From a virus: DNA of 34,034 nt. Positions 17,247 through 23,602 of the stretch are shown here, piece by piece. The DNA is taken from IMG/VR virus record IMGVR_UViG_3300009379_000004, positions 1 to 34,034 of that record; one strand, written 5' to 3'. Position 1 is the stretch's first letter; each line of letters opens with the position of its first letter. Position numbers and translations under genes: made by a program. Under the pieces are notes generated by a model. It made no database searches. It saw only the letters and a list, made by a program, of their open reading frames with translations, and was not told the origin of the DNA.

Positions 17247-19160
17247 CTAACTCATCCATTTACTGCGGATTACCTGTCGTTGCCGCTGCTTTGGCTGTTG
17301 CGGCTCCGGTGTGGCCTTGCCTTGGAGCTGCTCTTTCAGTCGGTCAAAATCAATCCTGTTTACCCCGGCCCTGAGTGCTGCGTGATAACAGTAGACCTCG
17401 CAGTCTATCGCCTCGTTTCGTTCCCGGGTTTTGACCCATTCTCTCTTGGGGAAGCCCTTATTAAATTTAGTGATCAGCTTCTCAGCTGTGAGCTGCTGAA
17501 AATATTCATCCGAGGTGCCGATCGGAAAATGGTAGTAACCCGGTTGCGTTTCTTTTGAGGGGTCAAGCTCGTTATTCAGGCGGCTGTAAATAATACCCTT
17601 CGCTGCGTCCGTTCCGACTGCCCAGAGCTGCACCCCTCTTTCTATTTTCCGGCCCTTATAATCCACGTCCTGCAAAGTTGGCGGGTTTACAATGGGCTTA
17701 TTTTTGGTGCTTGCGCCCTTTACAGCGACCACACCCTGCGCCGCTCTTTTCCGGCAATACCTTTTAACTGCCTCGTCCTTGTGTCCCCCGGTATCGATAG
17801 ACATAGAGACTATCTTGAGATCTGCGCCTGAATCATGCCGGAAATCATGATTCAGGACCTCGTCAAGCTGGTCCCACACCTCATCCTGATCTGGGTCCCC
17901 GTAAAGCTCGTTGTGATAGATCTTCCAATTCTCTTCATCTTTCCCCCAGGCCCGAACCACGACGGCAAGGCGGTTATCCTGGGTATCGACTCCGGCGGTG
18001 ATCAGCATGCCGCCGAAGGGGACTGTCATGATCTTGTATGGCTCGCACCTTGCTGCGAGAGTTGTCCATTCGGGGCGGTTGCCGGCTTCTTCAAAAGACT
18101 CTGCTTTCCGGGTGTTAACCCAGACCTTCATGGGGAGATGGTTGCCCTTCCTCATGGCATGGGCCGCCTTTATAAACTCCTCCATGATCTGGGTCCATGA
18201 GAGCCAGCCAAGGGGAGAGTAGAGGGAGTTGACTTTAAACCCCCTCTTTTTCCGGTCGGGGTACCGGTGAACGTATATCCCCTTAAGCATCATTTCGCCC
18301 TTTTGATATTCCTCGATCCGGCAGTGGCAATGCTTACAAACATACCAAACATCTGTAACCTCATTAGCTTCGTTGCGCTCAAATTTGATTCCGTAATTAG
18401 TATCTTTCCCGCCAAATTCAAGGAACTGGTGTTTCTCACAATGAGGACATGGTACGTTGAATTCTCCTTGGCTTGATTCCTCATACTCGCCATCTATAAA
18501 TGAAGCACCTTTCACTGTCGGTGTGCTATTTATATAGATTTTTTTCTTACTACCGAAAGCGTCTGTCCTCTTCTTCAAAAGATCGCCCGGTGCACCCTCG
18601 TTTCCGGCTTCCTGTGTAAACCCGTCGTAGTCATCGAGTATTAGAAATTTGATAGAATCTGACCTAGCCGAAACCGGAGAATTGCAGCCGGTGAAGGACC
18701 AGCTCCCGCCGGGAAACTCTTTCAGGAGAAGAGTGTTTCCTCCTTCTCTTGATTTGCTCTCCGCGATAACCCCTCTTAGGCAAGGCATTGCGGCTACGCT
18801 GGGAGCTATTTTCTTTTTCGAGTGCTTTATAGCCATGTCATCGGTCGGCATTGCCATCATCGCCGGGCCGGGATACCTGTGGGCAATCCCAAAAAGAAAG
18901 TTGTTCGCTACCTCAGTGAAACCCATCTGTGTTGGTTTTATCGCCACGACTTCTTGAGTCGGCGACTGGGGGCTCAGCTCCCTTAGTATCTCCTCGACAT
19001 AAGGCGTTCGGGCGGTCCGATACCGCCCAGGCTCGACGCTACTCTCACTCGGGAGCCGCCGGTGTTCGTTTGCCCACTCGACATAATCAATATACGGGTC
19101 AGGCCGAAGTCCTCGGTTAAATGCGCTTATATATACAGATTTCGTTTTATCGCTCCGCAT
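17247..19160 (-). CDS. Terminase large subunit, lambda GpA family
   Basis: ATP-driven DNA-packaging motor and nuclease. The start ATG at 19160 has AAGGGA four bases upstream; GTG at 19175 is the alternative. In the 637-aa form the Walker-A-like motif KPTQMGFTE is at about 75-83 and Walker B with FLILDDYDGF at about 172-181. Two CxxC pairs (CPHC, CKHC) lie near residues 237-275. The nuclease domain begins near ITAGVDTQDNRL. Its promoter-proximal end is overlapped by the oppositely oriented consensus promoter of the RHH-ASCH pair, an unusual arrangement for an essential late gene. Confidence 0.95.
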   Translation of the reverse strand: MRSDKTKSVYISAFNRGLRPDPYIDYVEWANEHRRLPSESSVEPGRYRTARTPYVEEILRELSPQSPTQEVVAIKPTQMGFTEVANNFLFGIAHRYPGPAMMAMPTDDMAIKHSKKKIAPSVAAMPCLRGVIAESKSREGGNTLLLKEFPGGSWSFTGCNSPVSARSDSIKFLILDDYDGFTQEAGNEGAPGDLLKKRTDAFGSKKKIYINSTPTVKGASFIDGEYEESSQGEFNVPCPHCEKHQFLEFGGKDTNYGIKFERNEANEVTDVWYVCKHCHCRIEEYQKGEMMLKGIYVHRYPDRKKRGFKVNSLYSPLGWLSWTQIMEEFIKAAHAMRKGNHLPMKVWVNTRKAESFEEAGNRPEWTTLAARCEPYKIMTVPFGGMLITAGVDTQDNRLAVVVRAWGKDEENWKIYHNELYGDPDQDEVWDQLDEVLNHDFRHDSGADLKIVSMSIDTGGHKDEAVKRYCRKRAAQGVVAVKGASTKNKPIVNPPTLQDVDYKGRKIERGVQLWAVGTDAAKGIIYSRLNNELDPSKETQPGYYHFPIGTSDEYFQQLTAEKLITKFNKGFPKREWVKTRERNEAIDCEVYCYHAALRAGVNRIDFDRLKEQLQGKATPEPQQPKQRQRQVIRSKWMS

Positions 19161-19168
19161 TTTTCCCT

Positions 19169-19197
19169 TTGACACATCATGACAATGTCAATATAAT
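19169..19197 (+). promoter_or_regulatory. Consensus sigma70 promoter for RHH-ASCH pair
   Basis: TTGACA at 19169-19174, 17-base spacer, TATAAT at 19192-19197: a full match to the consensus at optimal spacing. It reads away from the large terminase gene whose 5' end it abuts. The first downstream plus-strand gene starts at 19263. Such a strong autonomous promoter is typical of moron genes. Confidence 0.85.
19180..19190. promoter_or_regulatory. Palindrome in promoter spacer, possible RHH operator
   Basis: TGACAATGTCA is a perfect palindrome about one central base, placed inside the promoter spacer where a bound repressor would block RNA polymerase. The first gene of the unit encodes a ribbon-helix-helix protein, which makes autorepression a reasonable guess. 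Confidence 0.5.
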
Positions 19198-19262
19198 GAT
19201 TATTAAGGTTACCATATCTATTCACCCCGGCCCCGTAAGGCCACCATGAAAAAGGGCATCCA

Positions 19263-19415
19263 ATGACACGACCCGGCACCACCATACAGCTACAAGCGTC
19301 AATCCCCAAAGAGCTCATGGCTGAGCTTAAAACAGAGGCTACACGGCAAGGGAGGTCTCTATCCAACCTCGTCGCCTTCCTCCTCGCCAAGGCCGTAGCT
19401 AAGGAGGGAAAATAA
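19263..19415 (+). CDS. Ribbon-helix-helix DNA-binding protein, 50 aa
   Basis: A gene too short for usual ORF cut-offs, found by reading the strand. The product has the Arc/MetJ/CopG plan. An N-terminal strand (TTIQLQASIP) is followed by helix 1 (KELMAELKTEATRQG) and a RSLSNLVAFLLAKAV helix 2, with Ser-Leu-Ser-Asn at the usual helix N-cap. Its stop TAA is immediately followed by the ASCH gene ATG. AAGGG lies 6 bases upstream of the ATG, and a 6-codon leader (ATG at 19246) overlaps the start. Most likely it represses the promoter at 19169-19197. Confidence 0.75.
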   Translation: MTRPGTTIQLQASIPKELMAELKTEATRQGRSLSNLVAFLLAKAVAKEGK

Positions 19416-19766
19416 ATGATACTTTCAGCGGTATCCATCAAAGAACCCTGGGCCTCTATGATCGCGCGGGGTGAGAAGACCATCGAACTCCGAACATGGA
19501 GGACTAAACACCGGGGCAAAATCGTCTTATGCGCCTCCAAAAAGCCAGAGGGAGGGTGCGCCGGAAACGCCTTCGCCATCGCGGACATTGCCGACGTCCG
19601 CCCCATGCGAGAAGCAGATCGCGAGAAATCCGGCGTAGATTTCTGCGAGGGGCTATACTCGTGGATTCTCAAAAACATTGAGCTCATCGAGCCGTTTCCG
19701 GTGAGCGGGAAGCCTGGCCTTTATAAGGTCACTATGCCCATACCGTCTATTAAAGAGCGTTGTTAA
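19416..19766 (+). CDS. ASCH-domain protein, 116 aa
   Basis: A small PUA-like nucleic-acid-binding or base-processing protein. The start reads SAVSIKEPWASMIARGEKTIELRTW, with the ASCH motif GxKxxExR at Gly19, Lys21, Glu24 and Arg26. Then comes RGKIVLCASKKP, the second strand of the fold. Known ASCH proteins include YqfB, an amidohydrolase for N4-acetylcytidine, which makes the neighbouring acetyltransferase-like gene noteworthy. It is on the plus strand, convergent with and overlapping the ABC-GNAT gene by 17 bases. Substrate unknown. Confidence 0.85.
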   Translation: MILSAVSIKEPWASMIARGEKTIELRTWRTKHRGKIVLCASKKPEGGCAGNAFAIADIADVRPMREADREKSGVDFCEGLYSWILKNIELIEPFPVSGKPGLYKVTMPIPSIKERC

Positions 19767-20874
19767 TAAGGGCGTTTGCCCCCTCCTTCTCCATCGGGAC
19801 GCCGGCATACTGGAACACCGCGCCGGGGCGGCACACTTTATTCGGGTTGTACTTTGCAGTAACACCTTTCCGGGTCTTCTGGATGAGGCCAGGCTTCTTG
19901 GTTAGCTTCCAGAATCTCGACTTATCGAATGCCCGAATTAGCGATGGGTGAGCCGGGTATGTCCGTAACCGGTACCCTTCCGCCATGTAAGCTGACCCAA
20001 GGGCATCGACCAGCCGAAACGCTATCCCGAGCCCTTGCCAATCAGGTAAAGTTACGAGCCGAGAAATTCCCTTGATGTCGTTGACCCTATTATTTGGCCG
20101 GTGAAGCACCGCCGCGAATGCCGCAGGATGCCCGTCCACGTAGAGAGCGAAACACCTTGCCGCCTTATTTAGGGACGCGCTCATATAATGATATGGTGCG
20201 AATACCCGCCACATCTCATAACCGACCCGCTTAATTTCCCCCTTAAGCTCGGGCCGCCGAAGTGACCCCCTCGTCGCGGTGAATTTCATCGCGGCCGGCT
20301 CAAAAACCCAGTCAGGCTGGAGCCAATCAATCACATCGTAATGGCAGGTAATGGCAACGAACTGTTTTTTATGCTTTCTGACGTATTTCTGAACCGCATG
20401 GCTCCCGATCTGTGCGACCTGCCGGTCGACGACAGATGTGAATTCATCGACGACAATCGGGCTCTGGTGTTCGAGGAGCCTCCGGGCCATCTCCACCCTA
20501 AATTTTTCACCATTTGATAGTACGCTATGCGGCCGCAACCACGCCGGTATAGTATTAAACCCTACCGATTGGCAGGCCTGCGTGATCTGCTCCATATTGA
20601 AAATGGCAGGAAAATCGTCAACCACAGCTCCACCGCCCCAAGAAAGCTGCGGCTCGTAATTGTCCGCGAAAAGGTCCTTCCCGATAACTGATTTCCCGCA
20701 ACCTGACGGCCCCACGATTAAGCCAACATTCCAGTCGCCCTTATCGATAGGGAGGTCGCCGCACCACTCTATCCGGCTCTTCTCCTCTGGTGGGACGTCG
20801 AACATCGCTTCGAGCTGCCTACAGCGGGTTGACCGGGGCACATCATTTTCAATTACAATATTAATGGCCGGCAT
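19750..20874 (-). CDS. ABC-type ATPase fused to GNAT acetyltransferase
   Basis: A 374-aa fusion. The ATPase half has Walker A GPSGCGKS (55-62), an ABC signature LSNGEK (119-124), Walker B IVVDEF (140-145) and an H-loop His178. No membrane segments are present, so it is not a transporter. The C-terminal half (about 220-325) is GNAT-like, with a QxxGxA acetyl-CoA loop (Q280 to A285), a preceding beta strand, and a late YPAHPSLIRAF segment. It overlaps the ParB-domain gene by 22 bases and lies upstream of the large terminase. A base-modification or DNA-remodelling role is inferred; Mom of phage Mu is also GNAT-like. Confidence 0.85.
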   Translation of the reverse strand: MPAINIVIENDVPRSTRCRQLEAMFDVPPEEKSRIEWCGDLPIDKGDWNVGLIVGPSGCGKSVIGKDLFADNYEPQLSWGGGAVVDDFPAIFNMEQITQACQSVGFNTIPAWLRPHSVLSNGEKFRVEMARRLLEHQSPIVVDEFTSVVDRQVAQIGSHAVQKYVRKHKKQFVAITCHYDVIDWLQPDWVFEPAAMKFTATRGSLRRPELKGEIKRVGYEMWRVFAPYHYMSASLNKAARCFALYVDGHPAAFAAVLHRPNNRVNDIKGISRLVTLPDWQGLGIAFRLVDALGSAYMAEGYRLRTYPAHPSLIRAFDKSRFWKLTKKPGLIQKTRKGVTAKYNPNKVCRPGAVFQYAGVPMEKEGANALINNAL

Positions 20875-21413
20875 TTTAACCCCCTCTCGTCAAGTTCCTC
20901 TAGGAGCTCGCCCTGGTGTGCCTCGCCGTCGCAAGCAATAACAATCTGGTATTCGAATTCTTCAAGTTGGTTGGTCTCGGCCACCCCCGTCTCACCGGCA
21001 CCACCCACAATCCCCTCCTCGACACAAAGAAGCTCCTCGATCTCCTCCATAGAAAAGCCCGTTAACTCCAGGTCAAAATCAAAAGCCTGTAAATCCCCCA
21101 TTTCGACCGAGAGCAACTCATCGTCCCACTCTGCGAGTTCGCCAGTCTTATTGTCCGCGATTCGGTATGCTTTAACCTGTGCAGGAGACAATCCATCTGC
21201 AACATGCACCGGCACCGTCGCCAAACCAAGCTTCAACGCGGCCTTAAGCCTTGTGTGCCCGGCAATTATCACCCTATCGGAATCAACCACAATCGGTTGC
21301 CGCCACTTAAATTCACTGATCGAGGCTGCGGCCTTATCAACAGCTGCGTCATTAACCCGTGGGTTCCCGGGGTAAGGGAAAATGCTATCAGTGCCAGCCC
21401 ATTCAATGTTCAT
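20853..21413 (-). CDS. ParB-like nuclease-domain protein, 186 aa
   Basis: The N-terminal 110 residues match the ParB/Sulfiredoxin fold: YPGNPR (14-19), IVVDSDRVIIAGHTRLKAAL (41-60) with the AGHTRL box, and VKAYRIADNKTGELAEWD. Such domains in phages often precede a DNA methylase, but here the protein instead ends in a short domain (EYQIVIACDGEAHQGEL, then LDERGLKCRPLIL). It overlaps the Nu1-like gene by 4 bases (ATGA) and the ABC-GNAT gene by 22. That points to co-translation and a shared job, perhaps recognising or cutting DNA. ATPase (CTPase) activity is not evident. Confidence 0.85.
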   Translation of the reverse strand: MNIEWAGTDSIFPYPGNPRVNDAAVDKAAASISEFKWRQPIVVDSDRVIIAGHTRLKAALKLGLATVPVHVADGLSPAQVKAYRIADNKTGELAEWDDELLSVEMGDLQAFDFDLELTGFSMEEIEELLCVEEGIVGGAGETGVAETNQLEEFEYQIVIACDGEAHQGELLEELDERGLKCRPLIL

Positions 21414-21982
21414 GTGGACAATTCCTCTAACTCTGTGAGAAGCGCAGTTTTTAAGATATCTCCAATTACGTGCGGGTCTTCAATCACCGCTAACTGCGGC
21501 GCCACTCTATCGGCAACTCTCAATATACCGTCCCTCACTACTCGCGCCTTGGCGAAGGCGTCACGCTCGACCCGCTCACTCGCCACTAGTTTTTTGGATT
21601 TCTCTTCAAGCTCAAGTTTTAAGAGCGCCGCTCTAAACCTTGCCTGCCAAGTCTGCGCCTGACTAAGCGTTAATTCTTGTGTATTCCCCTTCGCGGCTAC
21701 ACTTCTATGCTGTGTCGTACCCCCATCATCTTCCTGGTTTCGTTTTCCTGTTTCGGTTCCTGTTTCGCTTTGTTTCGCTTTAGGCGTTTTTTTGTTAACA
21801 TATGAGACGTTGTTTTTGAGGTCGACCAAGGCTTTTTCCGGGTGGATGAGCTTTCGCTTGCCCTCCGTTTTCAAAGAACTTTTCGATATTTTCCCCTGCT
21901 TGATGAGACGTCGAACATATTGCGGGGTTTTGTCGATTTGCTTGGCGAATTCAACAACCCCTATATGCGCGCTTTTTGCCAT
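21410..21982 (-). CDS. Terminase small subunit, Nu1-like, 190 aa
   Basis: DNA-recognition subunit for packaging. The N-terminus is a winged-helix/HTH (GVVEFAKQIDKTPQYVRRLIKQGKI) as in Nu1. A polar low-complexity linker follows (KQSETGTETGKRNQEDDGG). A helical C-terminal domain (RAALLKLELEEKSKKLVASE, then FAKARVVRDGILRVADRVAPQLA) should bind the large subunit. Unlike lambda, two genes (ParB and ABC-GNAT) plus the ASCH unit are inserted between small and large subunit genes. Start ATG with GGGGTGAGGG upstream. Confidence 0.82.
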   Translation of the reverse strand: MAKSAHIGVVEFAKQIDKTPQYVRRLIKQGKISKSSLKTEGKRKLIHPEKALVDLKNNVSYVNKKTPKAKQSETGTETGKRNQEDDGGTTQHRSVAAKGNTQELTLSQAQTWQARFRAALLKLELEEKSKKLVASERVERDAFAKARVVRDGILRVADRVAPQLAVIEDPHVIGDILKTALLTELEELST

Positions 21983-22852: not shown

Positions 22853-23602
22853 TTAAAACAGTTTAAGTTGACGCTCATCCCTACTGTCTTCCCCTGCGAA
22901 CCGACGCTCAAGGTCATGGACTGTTGTGCGATTCTTAAACCCCCGATTACGCTCCGACACATTGCCGTCCATTTTGAGCATCCGCTCCCAGAGACCCGGG
23001 AAATGGGCCCTTAGATTTCTCAGCTCGCTCAATCTCTGGAGGGGGCAACAAAAACAGGATACCCGGTCGAATAAGTCGTAAAGCCCTCCCCACTCAAATC
23101 CCTTGCCCTTACAATAGGCGAGCGCCTGGGCTTCGGTGATACCCCATTCAACAAGCGGAAACCTGTGCTTCTTTTCCTGGAGTTCTTTTGACGGGTTTTC
23201 GTGTCGCTTTGTCTCGTCCGCCGCGTAGCCGATGCACTGGACGGCGTTAGGTATTTTCCGGGCGTATTTGTTGATTTCATCAACTTTTTGCCTAGTGCAC
23301 CACCGCCGTACTGGCGATGGCCAACCACTGCCGATCCGATGCACCTGACCCTTGTTCGGCCCCTTTCGTGCGATAGCGGGATGCTCGAACATCCAGTAAT
23401 CAAACGACCTCTCAGGGACCAGCCTCACAACAGGCACGTCCACCGTGGCCTCCAGTTGATCCAAATGGTCGTGCATCGCCGGGAACTCCCACCCAGTATC
23501 AAAAAACACCGCTGAATGGATCCTCTCACCCCGCTCCAACATCATGAGAAGCATGGCGGTGGAGTCTTTGCCGCCAGACAGTGAAACAATCTGATTTGTC
23601 AT
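22853..23602 (-). CDS. PAPS reductase-like PP-loop enzyme, 249 aa
   Basis: Belongs to the phosphoadenosine-phosphosulfate-reductase-like PP-loop family often seen in phages. The ATP-pyrophosphatase loop SGGKDS is at residues 9-14, followed by AVFFDTGWEFP (31-41). Six Cys (102, 123, 164, 183, 185, 186), with a C-x-C-C cluster, could hold an iron-sulfur cluster or thiol chemistry. DndC of the phosphorothioation system is a relative in the same superfamily, but none of the other Dnd genes are here. It overlaps the upstream 160-aa gene by 4 bases. The substrate is unknown; sulfur transfer to DNA or RNA is a possibility. Confidence 0.85.
   Translation of the reverse strand: MTNQIVSLSGGKDSTAMLLMMLERGERIHSAVFFDTGWEFPAMHDHLDQLEATVDVPVVRLVPERSFDYWMFEHPAIARKGPNKGQVHRIGSGWPSPVRRWCTRQKVDEINKYARKIPNAVQCIGYAADETKRHENPSKELQEKKHRFPLVEWGITEAQALAYCKGKGFEWGGLYDLFDRVSCFCCPLQRLSELRNLRAHFPGLWERMLKMDGNVSERNRGFKNRTTVHDLERRFAGEDSRDERQLKLF

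Follow-up and report, generated by a model that had tools for sequence, protein, structure and literature searches.

A ParB-domain protein and an ABC-ATPase/GNAT fusion form a conserved phage gene pair predicted to modify DNA

Researchers have predicted that GNAT acyltransferases acting together with an ABC ATPase attach acyl groups to a DNA base (PMC7824862, citing Iyer et al. 2013), so that DNA-base acylation by such ABC-GNAT proteins (phrog_11143) is already on record as a prediction, and PMC7824862 names phage pT24. In this work, we analysed the 34,034-nucleotide IMG/VR virus record IMGVR_UViG_3300009379_000004 (positions 1 to 34,034, hereafter the window), in which the same combination of ABC and GNAT domains is encoded by one gene whose start overlaps the end of a gene for a ParB/Srx N-terminal-domain protein; the window protein finds the ABC and GNAT genes of pT24. 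Relative to the predicted system, the window adds the ParB protein, a specific tail on it, an ASCH gene running towards ABC-GNAT and the adjoining terminase genes, some of which may be mentioned in Iyer et al. 2013. We propose that ParB and ABC-GNAT probably constitute a ParB-targeted, ATP-dependent DNA-base acyltransferase cassette that is expressed late, together with the packaging genes.

Several other described systems resemble parts of this pair. Mom of phage Mu has a GNAT fold (PMC7824862), and its HY motif and the conserved Arg further along lie at places similar to those in ABC-GNAT, but it has no ABC domain. In 7-deazaguanine DNA modification, the base-modifying enzyme DpdA is likewise accompanied by a protein of the ParB superfamily, DpdB (PMC6392294; PMC12839542), whereas its chemistry is transglycosylation and that of ABC-GNAT is predicted to be acyl transfer. 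Fusions of ParBc proteins to DNA methyltransferases are frequent, ParBc proteins also adjoin the DNA carboxymethyltransferase CmoX, and a 2025 paper calls their role unknown (PMC12783734); ParB/Srx proteins able to act as nucleases or NTPases have also been discussed (PMC10853773). The ParB-DNA methyltransferase fusions of phrog_498 contain a closely related ParB domain, but join it to a methyltransferase and have neither ABC nor GNAT. The tRNA(Met) cytidine acetyltransferase TmcA also carries an NTPase and a GNAT domain in a single chain and acylates the N4 of cytidine, but its substrate is RNA and its TM-score against ABC-GNAT is low. The NTPase of TmcA is of the helicase type. In COG2401, too, an ABC ATPase is joined to an acetyltransferase.

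A conserved pair of ParB and ABC-GNAT genes

The true functional unit of this locus is ParB plus ABC-GNAT, a conserved cassette. Relatives of ABC-GNAT were found by tblastn in 75 phage records from many hosts, every one below 60% identity. A scan of viral contigs for ABC-GNAT gave 80 loci. Collapsing at less than 80% identity left 76 units, 74 of them with informative upstream sequence, and ParB lies directly upstream of ABC-GNAT in 62 of these 74 non-redundant loci. One (L087) has only a mini open reading frame (ORF) for the ParB tail in that position, and 11 are without adjacent ParB or tail, although in four of these (L042, L019, L079 and L096) ParB lies within about 3 kb or the ABC-GNAT gene stands behind a first, ParB-bearing copy. 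Of 70 distinct pairs, 38 have a start codon permitting exactly the 22-nucleotide (nt) overlap of the window, and 12 have one permitting 4 nt. Because of this adjacency and the recurrent 22-nt overlap, the pairing exceeds chance, and the conserved ParB/ABC-GNAT pairs that the original prediction, made from the window sequence alone, had proposed to look for across phages were indeed found. In some Gram-positive phages, ABC and GNAT follow ParB as separate genes.

Variants of the arrangement were also seen. Two tandem ABC-GNAT genes about 1 kb apart follow a single ParB gene in L039, L040, L042, L043 and L044, and in phage SSU5 (L100 1623-3624) two tail-less ParB-domain genes precede a related ABC ATPase that has no GNAT half. 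The divergent ABC-GNATs of L144 (1465-3813; 466 amino acids, aa) and L145 (2-2271; 453 aa), which have no adjacent ParB and are followed by an Amidoligase_2-type gene, form a related yet distinct group; an integrase-like gene was noticed by eye upstream in L145.

The window protein matches the phrog_11143 profile over nearly its full length, with both domains in one protein, and its Pfam matches to ABC_tran and Acetyltransf_1 both exceed the cut-off. GNAT folds are among its best PDB matches. The Walker A, signature, Walker B and H-loop motifs (Table 1) are all in place, no membrane segment was found (the hydropathy maximum over 19 residues is 1.07), and the GNAT half retains its QxxGxA loop, all as first described; the D-loop is SVVD, and the H-loop residue is H178. 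Most ABC and GNAT motif positions are invariant across 31 aligned relatives, including Y230, R272, P277, Q280, G281, G283 and R349 of the GNAT half. The protein does not resemble part of an ABC transporter, as it has no transmembrane segment and no permease was recognised among the proteins scanned near ABC-GNAT.

The ParB domain, its tail and its exchangeable partners

The ParB protein consists of the domain (residues ~1-135), a flexible low-confidence linker (137-151) and a C-terminal tail. Its structure model has a mean pLDDT of 88, and the best fold matches are the N-domains of ParB, Noc and KorB. Residues 1-132 match phrog_498 (E 2.7e-44), and the Pfam ParB_N match (8e-5) falls under the Pfam cut-off. 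It is not a partition ParB by its composition or its company, since no HTH_ParB domain was found with Pfam and the gene that follows it encodes an ABC ATPase where a partition system would have ParA.

The strongest clue to function comes from the other partners of this domain. In a survey, 144 viral loci were collected by their similarity to ParB; 97 encode long fusions in which a DPPY-type motif points to a methyltransferase (a label assigned from protein length and this motif, with no family scan), nine have ABC-GNAT, five Mom and one a glucosyltransferase, while 7 loci were truncated and 25 had something else. In one of the 25, L278 (2079-4026), ParB overlaps a relative of DpdA/queuine transferase, followed by QueC, a gene set of the 7-deazaguanine modification type. 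The identified partners of the ParB domain are thus mostly DNA-modification enzymes, and this is our main argument for ABC-GNAT being one too. Further neighbours of ParB were also recorded: proteins resembling the DpdA relative of L278 come after ParB in L255, L292, L317 and L324; L315 has a glycosyltransferase-like protein by ParB, recognised by eye, whose phage relatives adjoin a gene annotated as a partition protein; in L287 (4235-5656) a P-loop protein of 473 aa overlaps ParB; and in L191 and L323 radical-SAM-looking proteins lie downstream of ParB and overlap it. The P-loop and radical-SAM-looking proteins are possible further DNA-modification partners.

The tail follows the consensus xYxIxVxCxxExxQxxLxexLxxxGxxCRxLxx in ParBs linked to ABC-GNAT, and in L087, L090 and L180 a mini-ORF preceding ABC-GNAT encodes the tail without the ParB domain. 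In the ParB-first survey it was present in 9 of 9 ABC-GNAT-associated ParBs and in 0 of 128 ParBs with other partners, a comparison that is not independent, since all but one of the nine are closely related and of the Streptococcus type, and ABC-GNAT-linked ParBs were the source of the tail profile; broader support comes from the set collected starting from ABC-GNAT. Its distribution leads us to predict that the tail is a partner-specific adaptor that docks ABC-GNAT. In L087 (3370-5095) and L090 (3349-5224), the tail-only mini-ORF and ABC-GNAT are followed by an overlapping formyltransferase gene (Pfam Formyl_trans_N), and the acyl group in these systems may differ from that of other ABC-GNATs.

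Exchanges between related phages place ABC-GNAT in the position of known DNA modifiers. The Arthrobacter phages EastWest and Martha are collinear, with identities of 66% for the left gene, 55% for the ParB domain, 80% for an AlpA-like gene and 44% for the sliding clamp. The interval from ParB to the AlpA-like gene contains ABC-GNAT and two small genes in EastWest, whereas in Martha it contains a 73-aa gene and then Mom (phrog_1384, 6e-66), and only the ParB of EastWest carries the tail. Javan523 and Javan291, two Streptococcus prophages, share an upstream gene at 61% and the ParB domain at 70% identity; ParB is followed by ABC and then GNAT in Javan523, and by a relative of HMC-glucosyltransferase in Javan291 (phrog_842, 7e-21). 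The ParB of Microbacterium phage Appa overlaps Mom by 8 nt. In Enterococcus phage 9184 (L097 1462-4978), the DNA polymerase gene is split close to its 3' end by ABC and GNAT genes, with the C-terminal piece of the polymerase fused to the GNAT ORF, and the related phage PMBT2 has Mom just after the polymerase. ABC-GNAT therefore shares with Mom both the pairing with this ParB domain and the genomic slot, and the analogy to Mom drawn in the original prediction is sustained for function by genomic context; it fails for membership of the sequence family, because phrog_1384 was absent from the matches listed for 31 members in the PHROG scan and hhalign gave probabilities of 3.6% and 0.7%. The hhalign alignment does superpose the HY motif of ABC-GNAT on that of Mom.

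Neighbouring genes and cellular copies

The features of the window are collected in Table 1. Nu1 and ParB overlap by 4 nt (ATGA, 21410-21413), and this overlap together with the one of 22 nt bears out part of the earlier view of Nu1, ParB, ABC-GNAT and TerL, the terminase large subunit, as one overlapping unit. TerL does not belong to it, as it is set apart by a gap of 574 nt in which Pfam recognises two opposite-strand genes, RHH and ASCH, where nothing had been noticed before; the ASCH gene shares 17 nt with the end of ABC-GNAT. The RHH/Arc-type gene is a probable local regulator. TerL has both the ATPase and the nuclease domain of GpA in Pfam and is thus of the GpA (lambda-like) type. The small subunit, TerS, is a neighbour of the unit and not a component of it, and because the window alone has TerS upstream of the pair among loci with a recognised TerS, the exact order Nu1-ParB-ABC-GNAT-TerL is local. 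Further upstream, a PAPS-reductase-family gene (22853-23602, minus strand; phrog_424) matches SspD in PADLOC (5e-27). A Dnd/Ssp-like link was considered and rejected, as a relative occurs near only one related locus (L062) and weakly (19 bits); we therefore take its proximity as coincidence and the gene as probably independent.

Table 1. Features of the ParB/ABC-GNAT locus in the window
Feature	Position	Strand	Support or remark
Nu1-like terminase small subunit (TerS)	21410..21982	-	phrog_57, E 7.3e-20
ParB/Srx N-terminal-domain protein, 186 aa	20853..21413	-	phrog_620, E 1.7e-49
ParB C-terminal tail, residues ~152-186	20853..20960	-	conserved motif, confidently modelled after low-confidence linker
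Overlap of ParB end with ABC-GNAT start, 22 nt	20853..20874	-	
ABC-ATPase/GNAT gene	19750..20874	-	phrog_11143, E 2.5e-98, residues 5-362
ABC-type ATPase half, residues 1-~205	20260..20874	-	Pfam ABC_tran 1.5e-5
Walker A GPSGCGKS, residues 55-62	20712-20689	-	
Signature LSNGE, residues 119-123	20520-20506	-	
Walker B IVVDE, residues 140-144	20457-20443	-	
H-loop block CHYDVIDW	20346-20323	-	identical in 31/31 aligned relatives
GNAT acyltransferase half, residues ~206-374	19750..20259	-	Pfam Acetyltransf_1 3.5e-6
GNAT motif FAPYHYM	20202-20182	-	
GNAT motif SRLVTLPD	20064-20041	-	
Acetyl-CoA loop QGLGIA, residues 280-285	20037-20020	-	
GNAT motif AHPSLIRAF	19953-19927	-	
ASCH (PUA-like) gene, convergent with ABC-GNAT	19416..19766	+	Pfam ASCH, 1.7e-8
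RHH/Arc-type gene, small, directly upstream of ASCH gene	19263..19415	+	Pfam RHH_5, 7e-11
GpA-type terminase large subunit (TerL)	17247..19175	-	Pfam GpA_nuclease 4.8e-95, GpA_ATPase 9.5e-72

Although the exact order is local, the position upstream of the terminase recurs. With eight TerL queries, which make the counts lower bounds, TerL was found 0-2.2 kb downstream of the pair on the same strand in at least 16 of 71 non-redundant loci and upstream in 0 of 56. Several different types of TerL are involved, and in L051 and L062 TerL overlaps the stop of ABC-GNAT by 4 nt. We take this proximity as a sign that the pair is probably expressed late, shortly before packaging.

Of 73 non-redundant loci, 11 have an ASCH gene at most 1 kb downstream, in every case convergent, versus 8 of 324 locus-bins elsewhere. 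The best PDB relatives of the ASCH protein of the window are chains of ASC-1 (Activating signal cointegrator 1), and it has the motif GxKxxExR. YqfB-type ASCH proteins use the triad Lys21-Thr24-Glu74 to hydrolyse N4-acetylcytidine (PMC6972931), and we considered the ASCH protein as an acyl-cytosine eraser of this type. That candidate was rejected because Glu replaces the nucleophile Thr24 in the window (GEKTIELR), as it does in the relatives in which the motif was found, which leaves the triad incomplete. Since these proteins are of the ASC-1 type without the Thr nucleophile, a binding or reading role is preferred over that of an eraser, and the ASCH protein is probably a nucleic-acid-binding or -reading accessory.

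The pair is also found in bacterial chromosomes. A broad scan of genome contigs was swamped by general ABC Walker A matches, and it was replaced by profile searches of three phyla chosen from its matches, which are not a measure of overall distribution. Strong matches to profile A1 occurred in 2 of 399 and 2 of 396 genomes in two of the phylum samples and in 18 of 294 genomes in the phylum of Aeoliella, a planctomycete. Four of these 18 have a tailed ParB and ABC-GNAT at one syntenic locus, with transaldolase, PIG-L deacetylase, response-regulator and phospholipase A2-like genes as neighbours. In L167 (4478-9396) and the syntenic L168-L170, the pair ends a co-oriented cluster that includes the phospholipase A2-like gene, a second gene with a weak match to a protease-type model, and small genes of no assigned kind. 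The ratio of nonsynonymous to synonymous change (pN/pS) between the chromosomal copies is 0.14-0.24 for ABC-GNAT and 0.24-0.38 for ParB, with synonymous sites mostly near saturation; the chromosomal ABC-GNAT is thus under constraint. The pair is vertically kept. Its maintenance at a conserved locus indicates that ParB is a steadier companion of ABC-GNAT than terminase is, and that the pair can be maintained without a packaging machine.

Proposed mechanism, alternatives and significance

In the cassette that we propose, the ParB-type domain would engage phage DNA, and its C-terminal tail would dock and recruit ABC-GNAT. The ABC half may then bind and hydrolyse ATP to position or open the duplex, for which TmcA offers a comparison, and the GNAT half would move an acyl group from acyl-CoA to the exocyclic amine of a base, the likeliest chemical targets being adenine N6 and cytosine N4. 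DNA acylated in this way may be protected from host nucleases prior to packaging. Several points weigh against this proposal. The acylation chemistry is a prediction for all members of the family, and proteins and small molecules are further substrates of GNAT domains. TmcA, the top PDB fold match of ABC-GNAT by E-value (9.7e-7), is a weak one by TM-score (0.26), and the profile comparison of GNAT with Mom is not significant. PX29, vB_VmeM-32, P12024S, pT24 and Enterococcus 9184 show no detectable adjacent ParB or tail. The evidence from swaps consists of two phage pairs; the downstream genes compared between Javan523 and Javan291 show no match, so the Streptococcus case is an exchange of the ParB partner and not of a fully bracketed slot.

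The prominence of TmcA among the fold matches, and the activity of YqfB-type ASCH proteins on N4-acetylcytidine, would fit a different substrate, with the NTPase-GNAT protein acylating tRNA or another RNA and ParB serving as a regulatory NTP-binding subunit. We consider RNA modification of this kind unlikely, because the other identified partners of the ParB domain act on DNA, Mom holds the same slot, and the nearby ASCH proteins, which belong to the ASC-1 type and in those with the motif have Glu where YqfB has Thr24, are not YqfB-like hydrolases. The genes downstream invite another explanation, in which the pair controls the terminase or the host by acetylating proteins and by ATP-dependent handling of DNA where packaging takes place. 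The one-sided placement of TerL and its overlaps with ABC-GNAT in L051 and L062 would agree with it, but the TerL families vary, the pair or ABC-GNAT is also found behind tail genes, next to genes for replication and in Planctomycete chromosomes where no terminase was seen in the vicinity, and Mom or a glucosyltransferase can replace ABC-GNAT, all of which makes packaging gating or protein acylation improbable. The original prediction had offered a DNA-modification or a packaging-gating system. Modification is favoured by the ParB pairing, the Mom and glucosyltransferase swaps and the ParB-methyltransferase and ParB-DpdA relatives, while gating is left unsupported, because TerL types differ and the pair also occurs far from the terminase, both in phages and in Planctomycete chromosomes.

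We give equally little credence to an accessory defence or anti-defence function, in which the ABC ATPase-GNAT would act on host proteins or nucleotides and ParB would be a nuclease or NTPase effector. Such activities are within the reach of ParB/Srx proteins (PMC10853773), and the Planctomycete copies stand in a co-oriented cluster with the phospholipase A2-like and weakly protease-matching genes. However, the PADLOC match of ABC-GNAT is weak (mad3, 3e-9) and confined to the ABC signature region, and the best matches of ParB are methyltransferase fusions. Returning to ParB-targeted DNA acylation, we speculate more broadly, and somewhat short of an even chance, that the shared ParB N-domain is a plug-in adaptor that aims methyltransferases, Mom, glucosyltransferases, DpdA and ABC-GNAT through an enzyme-specific C-terminal dock, that ABC-GNAT writes a new acylated base, and that Planctomycetes have domesticated ABC-GNAT as a chromosomal mark.

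We found no description of the ABC-GNAT-specific ParB tail, the Mom and glucosyltransferase swaps or the vertically kept Planctomycete copies in open-licence PMC papers, and part of this may be in Iyer et al. 2013. The 2013 prediction, for which no reported chemistry was found in the same papers, is now made testable with named phages, two genes and a tail, and EastWest (ABC-GNAT) and Martha (Mom) provide a matched phage pair for comparison. A common targeting adaptor would also offer a role for the ParB domains that accompany many phage DNA modifiers, whether by fusion or by linkage. The pair most likely puts an undescribed chemical tag on phage DNA, and the vertically retained Planctomycete copies suggest that the same chemistry may serve bacteria.

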